In this document: piece by piece, positions 2,581-51,453 of the stretch
Position numbering within the stretch: position 1 is the first letter of the stretch
Layout of the letters: each line of letters opens with the position of its first letter
Source of the DNA: Candidatus Zixiibacteriota bacterium
GTDB lineage: Bacteria > Zixibacteria > MSB-5A5 > RBG-16-43-9
Assembly (NCBI GenBank): GCA_030692925.1
Contig: JAUYBY010000080.1
Location: 1 to 60,356, forward strand
Length of the DNA: 60,356 bases
Direction: 5' to 3'
Translations under genes and position numbers: made by a program
The notes under the pieces: model-generated
The model's input: the letters and a program-made list of their open reading frames with translations, nothing else
Database searches by the model: none
What the model was told of the DNA's origin: nothing

Positions 2581-2603
2581 TCCGAATTTGGATCCATTCT
2601 GGA
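2581..2603. repeat. TCC...GGATCC...GGA mini-palindrome in the tRNA-Asn T-arm
   Basis: A 23-nt unit beginning TCCGAAT, with a TTGGATCCA core and ending GGA. Its exact removal restores the tRNA T-stem. Confidence 0.65.
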
Positions 2604-9090: not shown

Positions 9091-9180
9091 TGCTCTTCGT
9101 CCGAATTTGGATCCATAGGATTGGTGTCTTCACCAACGAAGAAAAGGTCGTTGGTCAGGAGACCAAACGACCAGCTAATG
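9091..9180. repeat. TGCTCTTCG/TTGGTGTC hairpin repeat carrying a TCC...GGA insertion
   Basis: The unit TGCTCTTCG-TTGGTGTCNTCACCAA occurs uninterrupted at 31960-31985. Here the same words are split by 21 bases at 9100-9120 that begin TCCGAAT, contain TTGGATCCA and end GGA. Further downstream hairpins (TTGGTCAGGAGACCAA) also match the 31.9 kb copy. Confidence 0.75.
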
Positions 9181-11450: not shown

Positions 11451-12719
11451 CTAAAATTCATACCTTAAGATCGAGTAAAGATTATCGTTTTTATCCAATT
11501 GACCTAAAAAGGTAGTCCTTTTTTCTCCTCCAAAAAGATTACCCCCTAAAGCTACCCAGAGATTGTCTGTGATTCGATAATTAACTTCGGGAATGAAAAA
11601 ATAGTCCTTATCCGTGGGGCTATAAAATCCGAAGAAGGATAGTTTCAAAGTCTGATATTTTAAAAGCTGAGTAGCTCTGAAAGTTAGAACTTGCCGGAAC
11701 TTATCCTGTTCAGGAAAACCTGGAGGAAGGCTCTTTTGATAATTTTTATAATCTTTCATATACTCACCATAATATTGCCCGCTATAAGTGAAATCGGTCC
11801 AGCCCTGTCTTTGATAACCAATCAAAAATTTACTAAAAGAATTAGGGATAAGAGGGTCTTCCCCTCTACGGTCCTGCCGGGAATCATAATAGCCATATTC
11901 TAAACTGAGTATTCCATTCAGAAGATCTCTTTGTAAAGTAAATCCATAAACTGAAAGTTCAGGGAAAAAGTAGGTAATCTTTGAAGGTGTGGGGAAACTA
12001 TCCGGGAGGATAGAGGGGGTTCGATAAAAACCCCTGTAAAGATAAAATGAAAGCTCAAAATTGGAAAGGGTGCGGTAAAGACGCAACGCCTCTTCTACAT
12101 TTTCAAATTTTGAATCAGGCTTTTGGATCTGTTTAAAAGACACATTAAGAAAAGGATCAAAGAGGAAGAAATTTTCAGAGGTAGGGTAATTATCGGATTC
12201 AAAAAAAGGTAACAAAGCTAACTCGGTTGAGAATATATCTGAGGAAAAGCTTATTCTTAGCCCATCTACCCCCAATTTTAGATATTCCATAGGCCGGCCT
12301 GAAAAAAAGGCTTGCCAGTCCTTGGGAAATAGATCATTAATAAAGAGCAAATCCCCTAGCCCCCAGGTGATGATCTGGCGGCCAATCCTAAAATCAAAAG
12401 CCTTTAAAGGATAATCTAAATACGCCTCCCGAATTTCAAGGCCGGTTTCCTTTTTCAAGGCATTTTCAAAGAAATCAGTTTTGGCAAAAAATTTTGCTTC
12501 TCCAAAGGATCCAAATTCGGATTTTTCAGAGCCAGAAAATTTGAGCTGAAACCTGTGATCCCCCAAGAGAAAATCACCTTGAGCTAAGGGAGGAACCAGC
12601 CCGGTGGTTCTAAATGAATAGTTAGTTTGAACAAAACCGTGCCACTCAATTTCCCGGGAAAAAGAAATTGAGAAAAGAAAAAGGAAGATAAAAAATGAGA
12701 AAATCACCTTTTTATTCAT
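11451..12719 (-). CDS. Outer-membrane beta-barrel protein (DUF1302/porin-like)
   Basis: A 422-residue exported protein: signal peptide ~1-22 (FSFFIFLFLFSISFSREI), then alternating hydrophobic/aromatic strands with short turns and a terminal aromatic residue (ILRYEF), as for outer-membrane barrels. An RIGRQIITWG element is typical of DUF1302/alginate-export-like barrels that accompany MMPL/LolA operons. It is the last gene of a six-gene operon; the preceding stop TAA abuts this ATG directly, which implies translational coupling. Inferred role: the outer-membrane channel for what the RND pump and LolA-like carrier move. Confidence 0.8.
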   Translation of the reverse strand: MNKKVIFSFFIFLFLFSISFSREIEWHGFVQTNYSFRTTGLVPPLAQGDFLLGDHRFQLKFSGSEKSEFGSFGEAKFFAKTDFFENALKKETGLEIREAYLDYPLKAFDFRIGRQIITWGLGDLLFINDLFPKDWQAFFSGRPMEYLKLGVDGLRISFSSDIFSTELALLPFFESDNYPTSENFFLFDPFLNVSFKQIQKPDSKFENVEEALRLYRTLSNFELSFYLYRGFYRTPSILPDSFPTPSKITYFFPELSVYGFTLQRDLLNGILSLEYGYYDSRQDRRGEDPLIPNSFSKFLIGYQRQGWTDFTYSGQYYGEYMKDYKNYQKSLPPGFPEQDKFRQVLTFRATQLLKYQTLKLSFFGFYSPTDKDYFFIPEVNYRITDNLWVALGGNLFGGEKRTTFLGQLDKNDNLYSILRYEF

Positions 12720-12929: not shown

Positions 12930-13757
12930 TCATTTTATCCATTTTGAAGGTGGATTTTTCAAATATCTTTCCGTGAAAAGATTTTCTTCCATCCCCAGAT
13001 TATATTGGATATCTTTAAAGCTGACCAAGGTCTGATGACCGGTTTTTACATTTTGCATTCTTCTTTTAGTCACTGTCCAGAACCCCTGGATCTGTTTGAG
13101 TTCCTCTGCGCTAAAAATTTTGTAGAGCTCACCCTTTAAATCGTAATACTCCTCTTTTAAAGGAAGGAAGCTCTCTTTATCTATCCAGGAAAGCCTATAG
13201 CTATAGTCTGCGCTTTTAGGGTCCTTAGGGACACTTTTCAAAACATAACAATCCCCTGCCTGTCCCATGGATCCAAAATCGGAGATTTTTTCTTCTCTCA
13301 GGATAGAAAAATCATCCTCTTCTAAGTCCCTGCCTGAGACATCCTCATAAGTGAAATCCGAGCCCACAAAGCTAGAGCGCTTGTCTTTAGCTGCAATCCT
13401 TTTGACTAAATTTAAAGCCGGCATAAAAAGCCAACGGTCGTCATCTTTTTTAGGGTATTTGTAAACCATAAAGCTCATCCCCCGCACATCTGCGGGCTGA
13501 TGAAAATAGATAAAATATTTCTGCTCCAATCCTTTGGGTGAGTTTTTCCTTAACATAGTTAACTCTCTTATTCTCTCTTGGCCACCCTTTTCGATAAGTT
13601 GCATAGAGACCAAAACCTTGAAATCCTTCCCCGGATAGAAAAAGTACCCCTGGTACTTAGCGGCCACTTCTGGAGCGGTAAATTTTTCCTGTCCCCAAAG
13701 AACAGATGGGCTGAAAATCACAAAAAGACCTAAAGTCAAAAAATATTTTTTAAGCAT
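12930..13757 (-). CDS. LolA-like outer-membrane lipoprotein-sorting protein
   Basis: A 275-residue periplasmic protein with signal peptide ~1-22 (cleavage near LWG-QEK). The body fits the LolA/LolB-like fold family annotated outer membrane lipoprotein-sorting protein that regularly neighbours MMPL transporters: residues ~110-140 include KKDDDRWLFMPALNLVKRI, then SFVGSDFTYEDVSGRD, then a strand-rich end. It likely ferries a hydrophobic molecule across the periplasm between the RND pump (gene just upstream, 13-base gap) and the barrel protein. It is not the housekeeping LolA, which is shorter and lacks these motifs. Confidence 0.85.
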   Translation of the reverse strand: MLKKYFLTLGLFVIFSPSVLWGQEKFTAPEVAAKYQGYFFYPGKDFKVLVSMQLIEKGGQERIRELTMLRKNSPKGLEQKYFIYFHQPADVRGMSFMVYKYPKKDDDRWLFMPALNLVKRIAAKDKRSSFVGSDFTYEDVSGRDLEEDDFSILREEKISDFGSMGQAGDCYVLKSVPKDPKSADYSYRLSWIDKESFLPLKEEYYDLKGELYKIFSAEELKQIQGFWTVTKRRMQNVKTGHQTLVSFKDIQYNLGMEENLFTERYLKNPPSKWIK

Positions 13758-22463: not shown

Positions 22464-22934
22464 AGATTTTCTCCGGATATTTTGACAGCAAAATAGACAA
22501 TTGATGATTCTTTGTCAATTTATGTTTTGAATCCCCCTCTCCTCGTCCGTGAAACGGATCCGTAGGATGGGAGAGGGATAAAGGGAGAGGCTTCTCGGTA
22601 GGTCAGACATTCTGAGACTGTTGCTCAACTCCTGAAAAACCCATATTCATTCAGGAGACGTGAATGTAGGGACAGCCCTTGTGGCTGTCCCTATTAGGGT
22701 TAGGACAGGGACCACCGCCTTTGGCGGGATTTCGCATCGCTCAACAAGCTTTTCCCTACAAAAAAATTCACCTAAAAAAGACTTCGGCAAAGACTCTTCT
22801 TGTCTGACAGTCTGACACAGACAGGAATGTCTGTGTTACCTCATTTAACAAAAGATAAACTTGCTTTTTGCCATTCAAACCGTTAAAATAACTTTGTAGC
22901 AGTCTTAAGAAAAAGAACCTCAATAGATATAAAA
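22464..22934. repeat. Repeat-filled spacer, 470 bases
   Basis: No gene. It holds a CCCCTCTCCTCG...TGGGAGAGGG hairpin whose loop carries a 22-base TCC...ACGGATCCGT...GGA unit (22546-22567), a GTAGGGACAGCC...GGCTGTCCCTA hairpin (22666-22693) and a CCGCCTTTGGCGGGA palindrome (about 22714-22729). Confidence 0.6.
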
Positions 22935-25577
22935 ATGTCTTTTCTCAAAAAATATTTTCTCACTCTTTTCTTAATCCTTTTCTCGGCGTTGAGTGCACCT
23001 GCGGAACAGGGGAAAACGATTATACGCCTGGAAAAAACCGGGCTTAAAACTGGAGAACTTTTTCAGCCTTATCCCCTTTCCAGCCCAAAAGGAAAAATCG
23101 GGCTGGCTTTAGCCGGGGGCGGAGCACGGGGCTTAGCCCAGATAGGGATTCTTAAGGTTTTGGAAAGAGAGAAAATCCCCATCGACCTTATTGCCGGGAC
23201 CAGCATGGGAGGGATAATCGGAGGGCTTTATGTCTGCGGGTATTCCGCAGAGGACCTGGAGAAGTTAGCTTTGCAGATCAACTGGCAGGACCTTTTCTCC
23301 AATGCCCCTCCCAGGCTTTCCTTACTCCCTTCTCAGAGAGAAGAAAACGATAAATACCTTTTTCAGATATATTTTGAGGGTTTAAAACCCTCTATCCCAA
23401 AAGGACTGATCACAGGCCAGAAACTGACCAACCTTTTTACCCAACTTACTATGCAGGCAAATTTCGAAGCTGGTTCGAATTTCGACAAGCTTAAAATACC
23501 TTTCCGGGCTGTAACTACGGATTTAGCCACCGGTCAGGAGGTAGTCCTGCGATCAGGTGACCTGTCTGAAGCCTTGAGAGCTACCATGGCAATCCCCCTG
23601 GTCTTTACCCCGGTGGAGCTTGACGGGAGACTCTTGGTGGATGGAGGATTAGTTGACCCGATTCCAGTTGAAATCACCAAGAACATGGGAGCAGATTTTG
23701 TAATCGCAATTAACACCTCATCTGAGCTTTTGTCCTCCTCCCGGATCAAAGACCCTCTGGATATTGCCAACCAGACCACCTCAATAATGACCTTAGAAAG
23801 AAAAGAACAGGAATTGAAAAAAGCTGATTTTATTATCTCCCCTGACCTTTACCCCTATTCCTCAACCAGTTTTGAAAAAGCTGCAGAGCTTATCAGAATA
23901 GGGGAAAGAACTGCTGACAGTCTGATCCCGCAGTTGAAATCTCTTCTATCTACCTCTGACCGGCCCTCTTCTGATTCTCTTTATCCGATTAAAGAAGTGG
24001 AAATCTCCGGTAATCAAGACCTTTTGCCTGCTTCTCTGAAAATTGGTTTGAAATTAAGAAAAGGTGAGCAGGTATCGATATTTGACATAAGGTCTGATTT
24101 GAAAAATCTTTATTCCACCGGTTATTTCAAGGATGTTTATGCTGAACTATCCAGAGGGAGTGAGAATTATTTACTGACCTATCATCTGCATGAAAATCCA
24201 TCTTTCAATCGCATAGAGTTTTCAGGTAACAGGCTTTTCACCCCTGAGGAGTTAGAAAATAAGATCTCCTTTCCTCCTGAAAGGGTTGCAAACTTCAAAA
24301 TCTTGCAGGAGAAGTTACACCAGGTCATCAGGCTTTACCAGAATTCAGGGTATTCCCTAACTCATATTGAAAGCCTGGATTATAATTCATCCACTGGAAT
24401 TCTAAAGGTAGCAATTGACGAGGGGATCATCTCTAAAATCGAGCTTTCTGGAAACAAGAGGACTAAAAACTGGATGGTGACCCGCGCTCTTCCTCTAAAA
24501 GAGGGGAGACCTTATGATTCTAAATCAGTGCAGAAAGGGCTTTCTAACCTTTACTCTACCGGGCTTTTTGAGGCCATTTACTTGAAAATCTTGCCTCAAA
24601 ATGGCCAGAATGATGATAAGGTGCTGAAGCTTGACCTGCAGGAGAAAAAGTTTTCTTTCTTAAGAGGCGGAGCTCATTACAATGATGAATATTACACCGA
24701 AGGTTTTATCGAAGCTGGGGATAATAACATATTCGGAATAGGGAATGAGATCTATGCGCACCTGCAATATGGCAAACGGAAAGAAAACCATAGCCTGAAT
24801 TTCAAAGCAGATCGGATTTTTAAAACCTACCTCACCTATAAGCTCAACCTTTACTGGCAAAGGGAGGAGAGAAGGATTTATTCTGGGCATAAAAGGGTGG
24901 ATTCATTTGAGGAGAAAAGAATGGGCGGGTTATTTTCCTTCGGACAGCAGATCGCCAGGCTGGGCAAGGCTTCATTGGAAGGCAGAATAGAGAAAGTTAA
25001 TACCGAATTTGAAAGTGCGAAAATAAAAGAGAACTACCAGATCACCAGTTTAATCTTCAGGTCAATAGTGGATAATTTAGATAAACTCCCGTTTCCGGAT
25101 GAGGGTAAATATCATTACCTCTATGCAGAACTATCCGGAAAAGTCTTTGGAGGAGACTTAAACTACAGGAAGTTTTTCTCCTCTTTAGAATCTTATTTTC
25201 CATTAGGCTCAAGACTCAATTTCCATCCCAAAGTAGCAATAGCTTTATCTGATGGAGACTTGCCTTTAGCTGACAAGTTCACCTTAGGCGGATTTGGAAC
25301 CTTAGGCGGCTTTTATGAGCAGGAGCTAAAAGGGGACAAGCTTTTCTTCTTTAATTTGGGCTTAAGATATAAGTTCTACAAAAGATGGTATCTCACCCTG
25401 AGATACGATTCCGGCAACACCTGGCCCAATTTAGAATCGATCAAGCTGAAAAACCTGCAAAATTCAATTTTATCCATCCTCTCAGTCTCCACCCCCATCG
25501 GACCCATAGAATTCGCCTACGGCAGAGCAGAGAAAAAAATTGATAAGTTCTATTTTAGGATGGGACTGGAGTTTTGA
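22935..25577 (+). CDS. Patatin-like phospholipase with POTRA domains and BamA/Omp85-type barrel
   Basis: An 880-residue surface or outer-membrane protein (type Vd, PlpD/FplA-like but with full Omp85 features). Signal peptide ~1-23. Patatin domain ~54-310: oxyanion hole GGGARG (61-66), nucleophile S90 in GTSMGG, catalytic D236 in DGG. Then POTRA-like repeats (~330-565; IKEVEISGNQDLLPASLKIG and ISKIELSGNKRTKNWMVTRA) and a 16-strand-like barrel (~570-880) with DKFTLGGFGTLGGFYEQEL near the end and a terminal Phe (MGLEF). It would hydrolyse lipids outside or at the cell surface. Its last codons are duplicated twice downstream, around the accessory modules. Confidence 0.93.
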   Translation: MSFLKKYFLTLFLILFSALSAPAEQGKTIIRLEKTGLKTGELFQPYPLSSPKGKIGLALAGGGARGLAQIGILKVLEREKIPIDLIAGTSMGGIIGGLYVCGYSAEDLEKLALQINWQDLFSNAPPRLSLLPSQREENDKYLFQIYFEGLKPSIPKGLITGQKLTNLFTQLTMQANFEAGSNFDKLKIPFRAVTTDLATGQEVVLRSGDLSEALRATMAIPLVFTPVELDGRLLVDGGLVDPIPVEITKNMGADFVIAINTSSELLSSSRIKDPLDIANQTTSIMTLERKEQELKKADFIISPDLYPYSSTSFEKAAELIRIGERTADSLIPQLKSLLSTSDRPSSDSLYPIKEVEISGNQDLLPASLKIGLKLRKGEQVSIFDIRSDLKNLYSTGYFKDVYAELSRGSENYLLTYHLHENPSFNRIEFSGNRLFTPEELENKISFPPERVANFKILQEKLHQVIRLYQNSGYSLTHIESLDYNSSTGILKVAIDEGIISKIELSGNKRTKNWMVTRALPLKEGRPYDSKSVQKGLSNLYSTGLFEAIYLKILPQNGQNDDKVLKLDLQEKKFSFLRGGAHYNDEYYTEGFIEAGDNNIFGIGNEIYAHLQYGKRKENHSLNFKADRIFKTYLTYKLNLYWQREERRIYSGHKRVDSFEEKRMGGLFSFGQQIARLGKASLEGRIEKVNTEFESAKIKENYQITSLIFRSIVDNLDKLPFPDEGKYHYLYAELSGKVFGGDLNYRKFFSSLESYFPLGSRLNFHPKVAIALSDGDLPLADKFTLGGFGTLGGFYEQELKGDKLFFFNLGLRYKFYKRWYLTLRYDSGNTWPNLESIKLKNLQNSILSILSVSTPIGPIEFAYGRAEKKIDKFYFRMGLEF

Positions 25578-25663
25578 GGAAAAAAAAGGCTTGATTTCTG
25601 AAAAGAGTTAGGATAAAATACCTTTTTGCTTAATAAAACCGTTAATAGGATGGTATATAGGTA

Positions 25664-26158
25664 ATGAAGAAAACAATAGCAGTCTTAAACCAACTCAGAA
25701 AAAAAGGGTTAATCAAAAATTATGCCATCGGCGGCGGAATTGCGACGATCTTCTATGTTGAGCCTTTCTTCACTTATGACCTGGATGTGTTTATAATCCC
25801 TTCGGGCACGGTAAAAAAGCAGAATCTGATTTTACTTTCTCCTATATATAATTATTTACAAGCTAAGGGCTATAAGTGGAAAGGGGAACATATCCTAATA
25901 GAAGGAGTCCCGGTGCAGTTTATTCCCGCGGACGAATTTGAAAAGGAGGCAGTCGCCAGGGCAAAAGCAGTAGAATACGAAGGGGTTAAAACCAAGGTGA
26001 TGGCTCCTGAATATCTGGTCGCACTATTATTACGGGCAGGCAGAAAAAAGGATATGGAGAAAACAGAAAAACTTTTAGAGCAGACCAAAATAGACAGAAG
26101 AAAACTCAGAGCCATCTTGCGCAAGTATGGTTTGACCAGAAAATTTGATCTTTTGTGA
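25664..26158 (+). CDS. Nucleotidyltransferase-fold protein (AbiEii-like)
   Basis: A 164-residue protein with a nucleotidyltransferase signature: YAIGGGIATIFY (G23-G25) followed by TYDLDVFI (D39, D41), the GG...DxD metal pair of Pol-beta-type NTases such as AbiEii toxins. The rest is short for AbiEii (usually ~250-300), so this is a minimal version. The next gene begins 12 bases downstream. Such NTases act as toxins that modify tRNA or other targets, or as plain nucleotidyl enzymes; the pairing with a small partner is suggestive only. It is the first module of the island after the patatin gene. Confidence 0.7.
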   Translation: MKKTIAVLNQLRKKGLIKNYAIGGGIATIFYVEPFFTYDLDVFIIPSGTVKKQNLILLSPIYNYLQAKGYKWKGEHILIEGVPVQFIPADEFEKEAVARAKAVEYEGVKTKVMAPEYLVALLLRAGRKKDMEKTEKLLEQTKIDRRKLRAILRKYGLTRKFDLL

Positions 26159-26170
26159 AGGAGAACTACT

Positions 26171-26407
26171 ATGCGTGGTAAAAAAGTTAGTCAGATGAAG
26201 ATCCTTATAAGGGATAATAAAAAAATCACCCGAAAAAAGCTTTTTGAAAATAAAGAAAAGTTTCACAAAGAGCAGGCAAAACTTCCTTTTGAGGAAAAAA
26301 TTAAAATACTTATCCGCCTGCAGGAGATCGCCAATAGCATCCATAAATCCACCTCCGGCGGAAAATTAGGAGTCTGGAAAATTCCCTCTAAATCCCGGAG
26401 CAAATAG
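26171..26407 (+). CDS. Small basic partner protein of the nucleotidyltransferase
   Basis: A 78-residue Lys-rich, helical protein (MKILIRDNKKITRKKLFENK; LPFEEKIKILIRLQEIANSI). A strong AAGGAGAACTACT site precedes the ATG. I do not recognise the family. Location right after the NTase (12-base gap) suggests a paired function, possibly an antitoxin; NTase-first order is opposite to many toxin-antitoxin pairs. Confidence 0.6.
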   Translation: MRGKKVSQMKILIRDNKKITRKKLFENKEKFHKEQAKLPFEEKIKILIRLQEIANSIHKSTSGGKLGVWKIPSKSRSK

Positions 26408-26410
26408 AAC

Positions 26411-26577
26411 CGCACGAGCGGAGAAAAAGATTGCTAAGTTCTATTTCAGTCCTGGGTGGCTACGAGCGAGCCCGCCCGTATGGGCGCCAGACGGAGTCTC
26501 CGCTTTCCCGGAAATGGGGCTGGAGTTTTAAGGAAAAAAGGGTCCGAAGGATCCATTTTGGACTTGATTTCTCCAAA
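26411..26577 (+). pseudogene. Duplicated 3' end of a patatin-barrel gene, split by two TCC...GGA insertions
   Basis: From 26414 the sequence reads ARAEKKIAKFYF, broken at 26450 and resuming at 26513 as RMGLEF-stop (stop at 26529-26531). The patatin gene ends GRAEKKIDKFYFRMGLEF-stop, so this is a tail copy. The 63-base piece 26450-26512 begins TCC and ends GGA; removing it restores the peptide exactly. After the stop, a second 20-base piece 26543-26562 (TCCGAAGGATCC...GGA) splits GGAAAAAAGG from CTTGATTTCT, which are contiguous after the patatin stop at 25577-25600. Confidence 0.8.
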
Positions 26578-26652
26578 GGATTAGTGTAAAATAAAAAACA
26601 TTCAAGAGATTTCGATGTAAAGCTCATCAAACTTTTAATCCGGTGACCAGGT

Positions 26653-26943
26653 ATGAGAGAAATTAAAGAATTAAAAGAGATTATAAAACAACATAGACAG
26701 GAGCTGGAGCAGAGATTTAAAGTAAAAACTATTGCCATATTTGGCTCATATGCCAGAGGGGAGCAAACCAAGGAAAGCGATGTTGATGTTTTGGTCGAGT
26801 TCAGCGGACCTGTTGGCTTTCTTTTCATTCATCTTGCAGATTATTTGGAAGAGATTTTAGGGGTCAAGGTTGATTTGATAACGCCTGAGGCGATCAAACC
26901 CAACCGGCGCAAATACATAATGGAGGATTTGACCTATGTTTAA
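26653..26943 (+). CDS. mntA: MntA-type minimal nucleotidyltransferase antitoxin
   Basis: A 96-residue nucleotidyltransferase with the motif FGSYARGEQTKESDVDVLVE: GSYARG then the SDVDV acidic pair. In the MntA-HepT toxin-antitoxin system MntA is the antitoxin that AMPylates HepT. The C-terminal DLITPEAIKPNRRKYIMEDL is typical too. It overlaps the next gene by 8 bases. Located after the patatin-tail duplicate. Confidence 0.88.
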   Translation: MREIKELKEIIKQHRQELEQRFKVKTIAIFGSYARGEQTKESDVDVLVEFSGPVGFLFIHLADYLEEILGVKVDLITPEAIKPNRRKYIMEDLTYV

Positions 26944-27277
26944 AAGAGAGTGGAAGCTGTTTGTGGAAGACATCCTGGAATCCATTGAAAAGATTGAAGA
27001 ATATGTCAAAGATATGACCCCGGATGGTTTTAAGCAAGATAGGAAAACAACAGACGCGGTGGTAAGAAATTTCGAGATTATTGGCGAGGCATCAAGATAT
27101 ATACCGGATGATATAAAAATTAAATTTCAGAATGTAGATTGGAAAGCCATAGTTGGACTCAGAAACAGGATCGCTCATGCGTATTTTGGCATAAGTCTGG
27201 CAATCGTCTGGGAGATCATAAAAGGGGAATTACCTATCTTAAAAGAACAGATGAAAGAAATCTCAGAAAAAGGTTGA
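26936..27277 (+). CDS. hepT: HepT-type HEPN toxin (DUF86)
   Basis: A 113-residue all-helical HEPN RNase. The RNase motif R-x4-H plus Tyr is RNRIAHAYF, near residue 81; the helix VVRNFEIIGEASRYIP also fits. In the MntA-HepT system the toxin cleaves RNA unless AMPylated at the Tyr of the HxY motif. It overlaps the MntA gene by 8 bases. No further antitoxin gene is needed. Function assigned by family and pairing. Confidence 0.88.
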   Translation: MFKREWKLFVEDILESIEKIEEYVKDMTPDGFKQDRKTTDAVVRNFEIIGEASRYIPDDIKIKFQNVDWKAIVGLRNRIAHAYFGISLAIVWEIIKGELPILKEQMKEISEKG

Positions 27278-27330
27278 GAGCCAGGAGTTATTAATAGCCC
27301 TTTGCCCTCGCTACTCGCACCTCACACCTG

Positions 27331-27401
27331 TCCTACGGATCCGTTTCTAGGACAGTTCTCAGAATGGGGCTGAAGTTTTAGAAAAAGGGCTTGATTTCTG
27401 T
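27331..27401 (+). pseudogene. Second duplicated patatin-barrel tail with adjacent TCC...GGA palindrome
   Basis: ATGGGGCTGAAGTTTTAG (stop 27379-27381), then AAAAAGGGCTTGATTTCTG, matches the end of the patatin gene (RMGLKF here against RMGLEF) and its downstream bases. A 22-base TCC-TACGGATCCGT-...GGA unit lies just before, at 27331-27352, within an 8-bp CTGTCCTA/TAGGACAG palindrome. Confidence 0.7.
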
Positions 27402-46163: not shown

Positions 46164-46575
46164 CTATCCACCTTTCAACTACTTTTAAGGCATTATCACT
46201 AAAATAGATATCGACCAATGGTAATACGTTAATACCCCTTATACCTTTTGTCAAGAAATAAATCGTAAATAAGGGTTAAAGGGGCTAAGGGTTCAAGAGC
46301 TCAAGGGAGAAAGAGGATGACGGTTTTTGAATAATGAAAGATACTTTATACATTGACTCCATTTAATTCTTTAAATGGAAACCTGTCCGAAAAACGGATC
46401 CGTAGGAAAGGTTTCCGCCCTACGGGGGTCTAAGCCCGGCGTAGCCGTCGTAAGGCTTTTATCGACTACAAAAATCTTCTCTTCTGCTCTATTTTAACCA
46501 AAAAACATCTGGCTAAAAGTTCCTTTTTAAGTTATATTTTTTGCAGAGGATACTTTTCAAAAAAAGGAGATACTT
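46164..46575. repeat. Repeat-bearing spacer between thiC and ACT gene
   Basis: It contains GGAAACCTG...AGGTTTCC whose loop holds a 22-base TCC...ACGGATCCGT...GGA unit (46386-46407), directly followed by CTACGGGGG...GTCGTAAGGCTTTTATCGAC (46420-46466), a near copy of 3627-3673. Confidence 0.7.
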
Positions 46576-51070: not shown

Positions 51071-51453
51071 TTATTAGCAACCTGATTAGTATTTATTTTC
51101 CCAATCTTTCGTAGGGCAAATCTTTCCGCTGGATCCAAATTCGGACTGGTTTGCTTTTTTCTTTTTCACTCCGCCACTGGCGAAGCCCTACAATCTTCGG
51201 ACAACCACACGGTTCGACAAGCTCACCGTCCTGAGCAGAGCCGAAGGAAGGGTTGTCCCTACATTCCTACAGTTTTTCATCCGACATTCGTGATCCGTCA
51301 TCCGTAATTGTTTTTTCTATTTTCCTTCTTCTGTCTTACATCTTCCTTTTTATTTATTCATCATTCGTCATCCGTCATTATTTCCACTTGAACCCTTGAC
51401 CCCTCGTCCGCCTCTGGCGGATTGAATCCTCGCAACATTTTATCCCGCATAAA
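51071..51453. repeat. Repeat-filled livM-livG spacer
   Basis: From the livG side: GTAGGGCAAATCTT...GGTTTGC hairpin whose loop carries a TCC...GGATCC...GGA unit (51125-51145); GGACAACC...GGTTGTCC hairpin whose loop carries a TTCGACAAGCTCACC...GCCGAAGGA unit (51205-51260); TCATTCGTCATCCGTCATT repeats (51281-51380); and ACCCCTCG-TCCGCCTCTGGCGGA-TTGAATCC (51400-51429). Confidence 0.7.

Follow-up and report, generated by a model that had tools for sequence, protein, structure and literature searches.

What are the short pieces of DNA that split a repeated gene tail in this bacterium, and how did they get there? The window (the whole stretch of 60,356 nucleotides analysed) is contig C79 of the host assembly (G000; 2.41 Mb in 112 contigs). 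It was compared with other assemblies, all of them MAGs, including those of two congeners, G001 and G002 (patatin proteins 91% identical).

Short pieces in a repeated patatin tail

A patatin/POTRA/Omp85 gene (22935..25577, + strand; Pfam PF01734, PF07244 and PF01103) ends at 25577 with the tail ...AGAGCAGAGAAAAAAATTGATAAGTTCTATTTTAGGATGGGACTGGAGTTTTGA, and this 3′ tail is repeated downstream. The second copy, followed by a promoter-like stretch (26416..26593, + strand), is a gene fragment and not a gene; a third, partial copy occupies 27363-27400. Two pieces lie within the second copy. The longer is a 63-nt composite (26450..26512, − strand; TCCTGGG...CCCGGA), preceded by CAG and followed by AATG, whose GGA^TCC centre holds a second hairpin, TGGCTACGAG...CCAGACGGAGTC. 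The shorter is a 20-nt double unit, TCCGAAGGATCCATTTTGGA (26543..26562, − strand). A preliminary description had proposed that both split a continuous sequence, and G002 bears this out, since the sequence is uninterrupted there with exact boundaries: the same tail fragment occurs without the 63-nt piece (TTTCAG^ATTGGGGCTGG), and the 20-nt piece is a clean indel, missing between aligned flanks in an alignment spanning the empty site. Removal of both pieces in silico restored FYF-R-MGLEF-stop and the AAAAAGGG/CTTGATTTCT junction.

Relatives of the 63-nt piece were found at L002-L006, and about ten are dispersed in the host genome. Members of this class read TCCTACGG[...]TCCGTTTCTCGGA, in which another hairpin lies close to the centre of the unit. 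Several copies are also located at the tips of REP hairpins. Its inner hairpin (TGGCTACGAGCCAGCCCGC...) was also observed without the TCC/GGA unit, within a GTCAGACATTCCTGTCTGAC-type REP (L007, L008, L010-L013 and L015). The third tail copy carries another double unit, TCCTACGGATCCGTTTCTAGGA (27331..27352, − strand; CACCTG^CAG), which is common to the G001 and G002 tails and missing from other G001 tail copies.

The tail itself, together with a sigma70-like promoter stretch (TTGATTTCT...TAAAAT), recurs at every accessory-module boundary within 25525-27400. The modules between the repeats are an NTase (DUF2204), an MNT/HepT toxin-antitoxin-like pair and a type II-like methyltransferase, and those of G001 differ (G001:C205 at L126 and G002:C92 at L133 were compared). 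The region resembles a hotspot for module integration, with att-like repeats.

A dispersed family inserted without target duplication

Alignment of the window with G001 and G002 revealed indels with the same ends elsewhere, including TCCAAAGGATCCAAATTCGGA at 12501 and TCCGAAAAACGGATCCGTAGGA at 46386. Diagnostic of the family is TCC-N(2-8)-GGATCC-N(2-8)-GGA, mostly 20-23 bp long, with nine occurrences in the window. In 781 kb of host sequence we counted 35 copies, compared with 3-7 in ten Markov-simulated sequences; whole genomes gave 111 matches in the host, 81 in G001 and 77 in G002. On these counts the units are short palindromic dispersed repeats. GGATCC ranked first among the 64 palindromic six-base cores within TCC..GGA, and TCC ranked first among the 64 trinucleotide ends around GGATCC. 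The reversed pattern would have been an unfair control because its core, CCTAGG, is probably depleted in bacteria; therefore Markov simulation and other cores were used instead. The distribution across relatives is patchy: G007, from another family, has 77 matches, G003, from the same family, has five, and in most other relatives the count stays below 15. The common unit TCCTACGGATCCGTTTCTCGGA has an exact copy in the Zixibacteria MAG RBG_16_43_9, the sole match of an exact 22-mer contig scan from which near-host records may be missing; the host is therefore most probably a species of Zixibacteria.

Each unit contains TCC-loop-GGA twice, and clean empty sites are seen in the family; the two tandem hairpins that would make it a double-hairpin element of the GC-cluster type are predicted from sequence, and extra arm pairing is weak. 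The two bases that flank GGATCC form a Watson-Crick pair in 30 of the 35 units, as against 14 after shuffling (shared ancestry of two subfamilies uncorrected), and pairing within the two mini-hairpins beyond TCC/GGA was not significant. Halves of units recur in different combinations. Rfam recognised tRNAs only.

We then compared filled and empty sites. Clean empty orthologous sites were found for the units at 2581, 12501 and 26543 (in G002), at 9100 and 46386 (in G001), and at L182:5129 (G001) and L202:4346 (G002); those for L202:17527, L204:12743 and L188:19480 were nearly clean in congeners. The check for empty sites that had been proposed was thus borne out for about ten units and the 63-nt piece. 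About ten further units are common to the host and a congener (13263, 27331, 51125, L180:19921, L181:2901, L182:6217, L183:6264, L205:826, L211:2792 and L213:16505), and the remaining units aligned too poorly to be classified. The comparisons confirmed that no target-site duplication is present, so the pairing of TIRs with a TSD that marks MITE/DDE elements was not found. Where the flanking bases are G and C, or G and A, the boundaries cannot be shifted, and therefore TCC...GGA is the inserted string, with zero duplication. These results show that the units insert between two adjacent bases, with neither duplication nor loss of target sequence. Gain or loss could be polarised at few sites, the unit at 12501 being a polarised gain; insertion alone was shown and no excision event was polarised, so the term 'precisely excisable' used previously is not upheld. 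One repeat, CAAGACCTTG^AGGCCTTCC, is found within a single genome both filled by a unit and empty (L202:16531 and L210:681).

The single family proposed in the preliminary description holds in part. It includes the case at 9.1 kb, a double unit, TCCGAATTTGGATCCATAGGA (9100..9120, + strand), whose site in G001 is cleanly empty, and the tRNA case, which is empty in G002. It loses the 51.4 kb case (51407-51421, TCCGCCTCTGGCGGA), which departs from the diagnostic form, is common to G002 and has no clean empty site. Single TCC..GGA hairpins (51407, 57112 and 9229) were rejected as members, their frequency at hairpin tips being no higher than that of other trinucleotide pairs, and the loose definition TCC-N(9-60)-GGA is likewise not supported. 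Nor does the suggestion that units start after a G hold as a rule: this applies to 18 of 35 when they are oriented with the long spacer first.

The tRNA case is a double unit (2581..2603, + strand) that interrupts the T-stem of an additional, decayed tRNA-Asn spanning approximately 2534-2627. A split functional tRNA was rejected, as an intact tRNA-Asn, identical to that of the congeners, lies elsewhere in the genome (C11:8401-8472); the two tRNAs called by ARAGORN look normal and were likewise rejected as this case. The anticodon arm of the decayed gene has an insert of its own, TCCCGCATGTTTGCGGGA, which replaces CGGCTG and also occurs in a decayed tandem copy; therefore it is no clean insertion. 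An 18-nt TCCC..GGGA piece is common to the anticodon arms of the window copy and of the tandem copy beside the intact gene (L221, G000:C11).

Hairpin tips, nesting and protein genes

We next scored a unit as lying at a tip when its flanks, once joined, paired over 6 bp or more and the insertion fell in the loop of that stem. Fifteen of the 35 units (43%) did so, compared with 3.2% for random positions and 6% for shifted ones. In the window, a double unit (22546..22567, + strand) lies at the tip of CCCTCTCC..GGAGAGGG, the corresponding G001 region being without it but diverged; another (46386..46407, + strand) lies at the exact tip of GGAAACCTG^AAGGTTTCC, with a clean empty site in G001; and a third (51125..51145, − strand), at the tip of GCAAACCAG^AAGATTTGC, is shared in mutated form with G002 and missing in G001. 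The outer hairpins are REP-like and older than the units, and many have unrelated sequences, with the same insert recurring across them. Empty outer hairpins in the same genome match filled ones exactly (for example GCAAACCTG^AAGGTTTGC, GAACAGACAAG^AATGTCTGTTC and GCGACCCTTT^CAGGGTCGC). In a scan for tip inserts blind to TCC/GGA, TCC..GGA were the commonest ends (7 of 26), each other listed pair occurring once. Units also nest: at L188:19480 one unit lies inside another, TCCGAATTTG[TCCAGGATGGATCCAATCGGA]GATCCATCGGA, and in G002 the inner unit seems to be missing and the outer one mutated. The 13 sites sampled in G007 showed no preference for tips (0/13); the preference may therefore stem from the many REPs of this genus and not from the mechanism.

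A second palindrome family (GTTCGACAGGCTCACTGCTCTGAGC..) was also observed at REP hairpin tips (L192:5394, L205:19795 and L211:14371); tip insertion may therefore extend beyond TCC..GGA units.

The clearest surviving genic units are in-frame 21-mers encoding S-[ED]-[FN]-G-S-x-G, found in four likely genes as SEFGSFG, SDFGSMG, SDNGSVG and SDFGSIG. The strongest case is the double unit at 12501..12521 (− strand), which adds the seven codons of SEFGSFG in frame to a 422-aa gene (11451-12719, − strand). It is missing in G002 between identical 80-nt flanks, the nearby DNA being approximately 99-100% identical to that of G002. Among ten aligned proteins only that of the host has SEFGSFG; since the nine homologues, one from G002 and eight from other genomes in the class, are all without it, the unit is a gain, and a recent one. 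Another double unit (13263..13283, − strand), encoding SDFGSMG in frame in a LolA-like gene (12930-13757, − strand), is common to G002. The GGATCC core as a family feature, the preference for hairpin tips, nesting and in-frame insertion into proteins all go beyond the preliminary description.

How the units may spread

We think it rather likely that the pieces are copies of a non-autonomous mobile palindrome of approximately 20-23 bp, probably joined seamlessly at an opened hairpin loop. A unit may be viewed as a tandem pair of mini-hairpins, TCC-loop-GGA TCC-loop-GGA, that meet at GGATCC. Since the element and its target are palindromes alike and no TSD remains, insertion probably takes place on single-stranded DNA or an extruded hairpin. 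The loop of the target hairpin would be opened by a nuclease of the host or of a mobile element, and a short hairpin strand would provide the unit and be joined in seamlessly. Units with a second hairpin near the palindromic centre are also found dispersed as a longer composite, the 63-nt piece being one. A bolder and rather doubtful proposal is that the units are a class of bacterial mobile DNA in their own right: hairpin-tip elements of ~21 bp, served by a loop-opening enzyme not described before, with palindromes growing by nesting.

Several other routes would give similar pieces. The mover suggested in the preliminary description was TnpA-REP/Y1, by which the units would be REP-like satellites carried through single-stranded DNA by a host RAYT (Y1 HUH), as REPINs are. 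Single-stranded transposition, as in the IS200/IS605/RAYT group, makes no TSD, and Y1_Tnp genes are widespread (56 of 59 relatives; five in the host), their number correlating weakly with that of units (rho 0.29, p 0.03; 59 genomes, phylogeny uncorrected). However, G039 has eight RAYTs and zero units, and no GTAG/CGTC or other constant tag was found beside the 35 units. At the 14 RAYT loci read, the flanks carry other REPs and palindromes (GTAGCGTCCTCACTCC..., GGTAGAACAGACATTC..., CTGTCAGGTG...); a unit lies near one locus only, within an unrelated conserved gene. Some of the outer hairpins are REPs that also flank RAYT genes, such as GAACAGACATTCTTGTCTGTTC beside a RAYT of G002. We consider a RAYT mover unlikely, and no transposase or recombinase linked to the units was found. 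In a replication-error model, a polymerase that stalls at the tip of one hairpin would take a second hairpin as its template and copy back a short palindrome, so that tips pass from REP to REP. This would fit the tip location, the tip inserts of other palindrome families and the varied combinations of unit halves. It is at odds with the exact TCC/GGA ends, which share no flanking homology, and with clean insertions away from obvious hairpins (12501, 26543, 26450 and 9100), and we regard it as improbable too.

A conventional IS recombinase aimed at REP axes, which would make the units minimal remnants of IS ends, has precedents: ISPsy8 and ISRm22, like the units, insert at the symmetry axis of REP hairpins, and ISPa11 enters REPs without direct repeats (PMC1525189). 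Elements of the ISPsy8/ISRm22 type differ from the units in being full IS with a transposase, most of which make direct repeats, and a non-exhaustive look revealed no full-length partner with TCC..GGA ends. Twenty base pairs is also very short to hold two transposase binding ends, and such an origin seems very improbable. Least credible is that precise deletion created the empty sites, or that the pieces are artefacts of assembly or palindromes that arose by chance. Although direction is unpolarised at most sites, the gain at 12501 is polarised, the same units occupy the same places in independent MAGs, and the counts far exceed simulation.

Among known systems the units are best filed as a variant of the small mobile palindromic repeats. 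Like the GTAG-/CGTC-tagged REPs of REP/RAYT systems, which are dispersed and 20-40 bp long, some lying within genes and some within other palindromes (PMC3733652), they are short and dispersed; unlike them, they have a GGATCC core and TCC/GGA ends, lack the tag and a RAYT link, and use REPs as landing sites. Organelle palindromes of Volvox are also short hairpins, often inserted into one another in both orientations by a mover not known; the parts of that report consulted describe intergenic and intronic organelle DNA, averaging 50 nt, and mention no exact empty-site or tip-position test (PMC2670323). Yeast mitochondrial GC clusters (GC42) and fungal double-hairpin elements are likewise non-autonomous mobile palindromes with merging and shuffling of units and a mover not known, but GC clusters have TSD-like flanking AG or ACT direct repeats (PMC4478555); the host units have no TSD, are about half as long and lie in a bacterial chromosome. 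Rickettsia palindromic elements (RPE) resemble the units as in-frame palindromes in protein genes (PMC3733652, describing RPE work), a property found here in four likely genes, with a gain at one. As described, RPE are often longer than the units. We know of no GGATCC core or tip targeting in RPE. No description of a GGATCC-centred family was found in the literature searched, which covered few of the subscription journals. To our knowledge, the units are among the smallest mobile DNA in a bacterial chromosome.

For asking how tiny palindromes without genes spread, whether as REP loops, organelle palindromes or GC clusters, this family offers many unambiguous insertion events, sites that differ between close species and a target preference testable in vitro. 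The copies look selfish, and they supply proteins with ready-made heptapeptides containing Gly and Ser.
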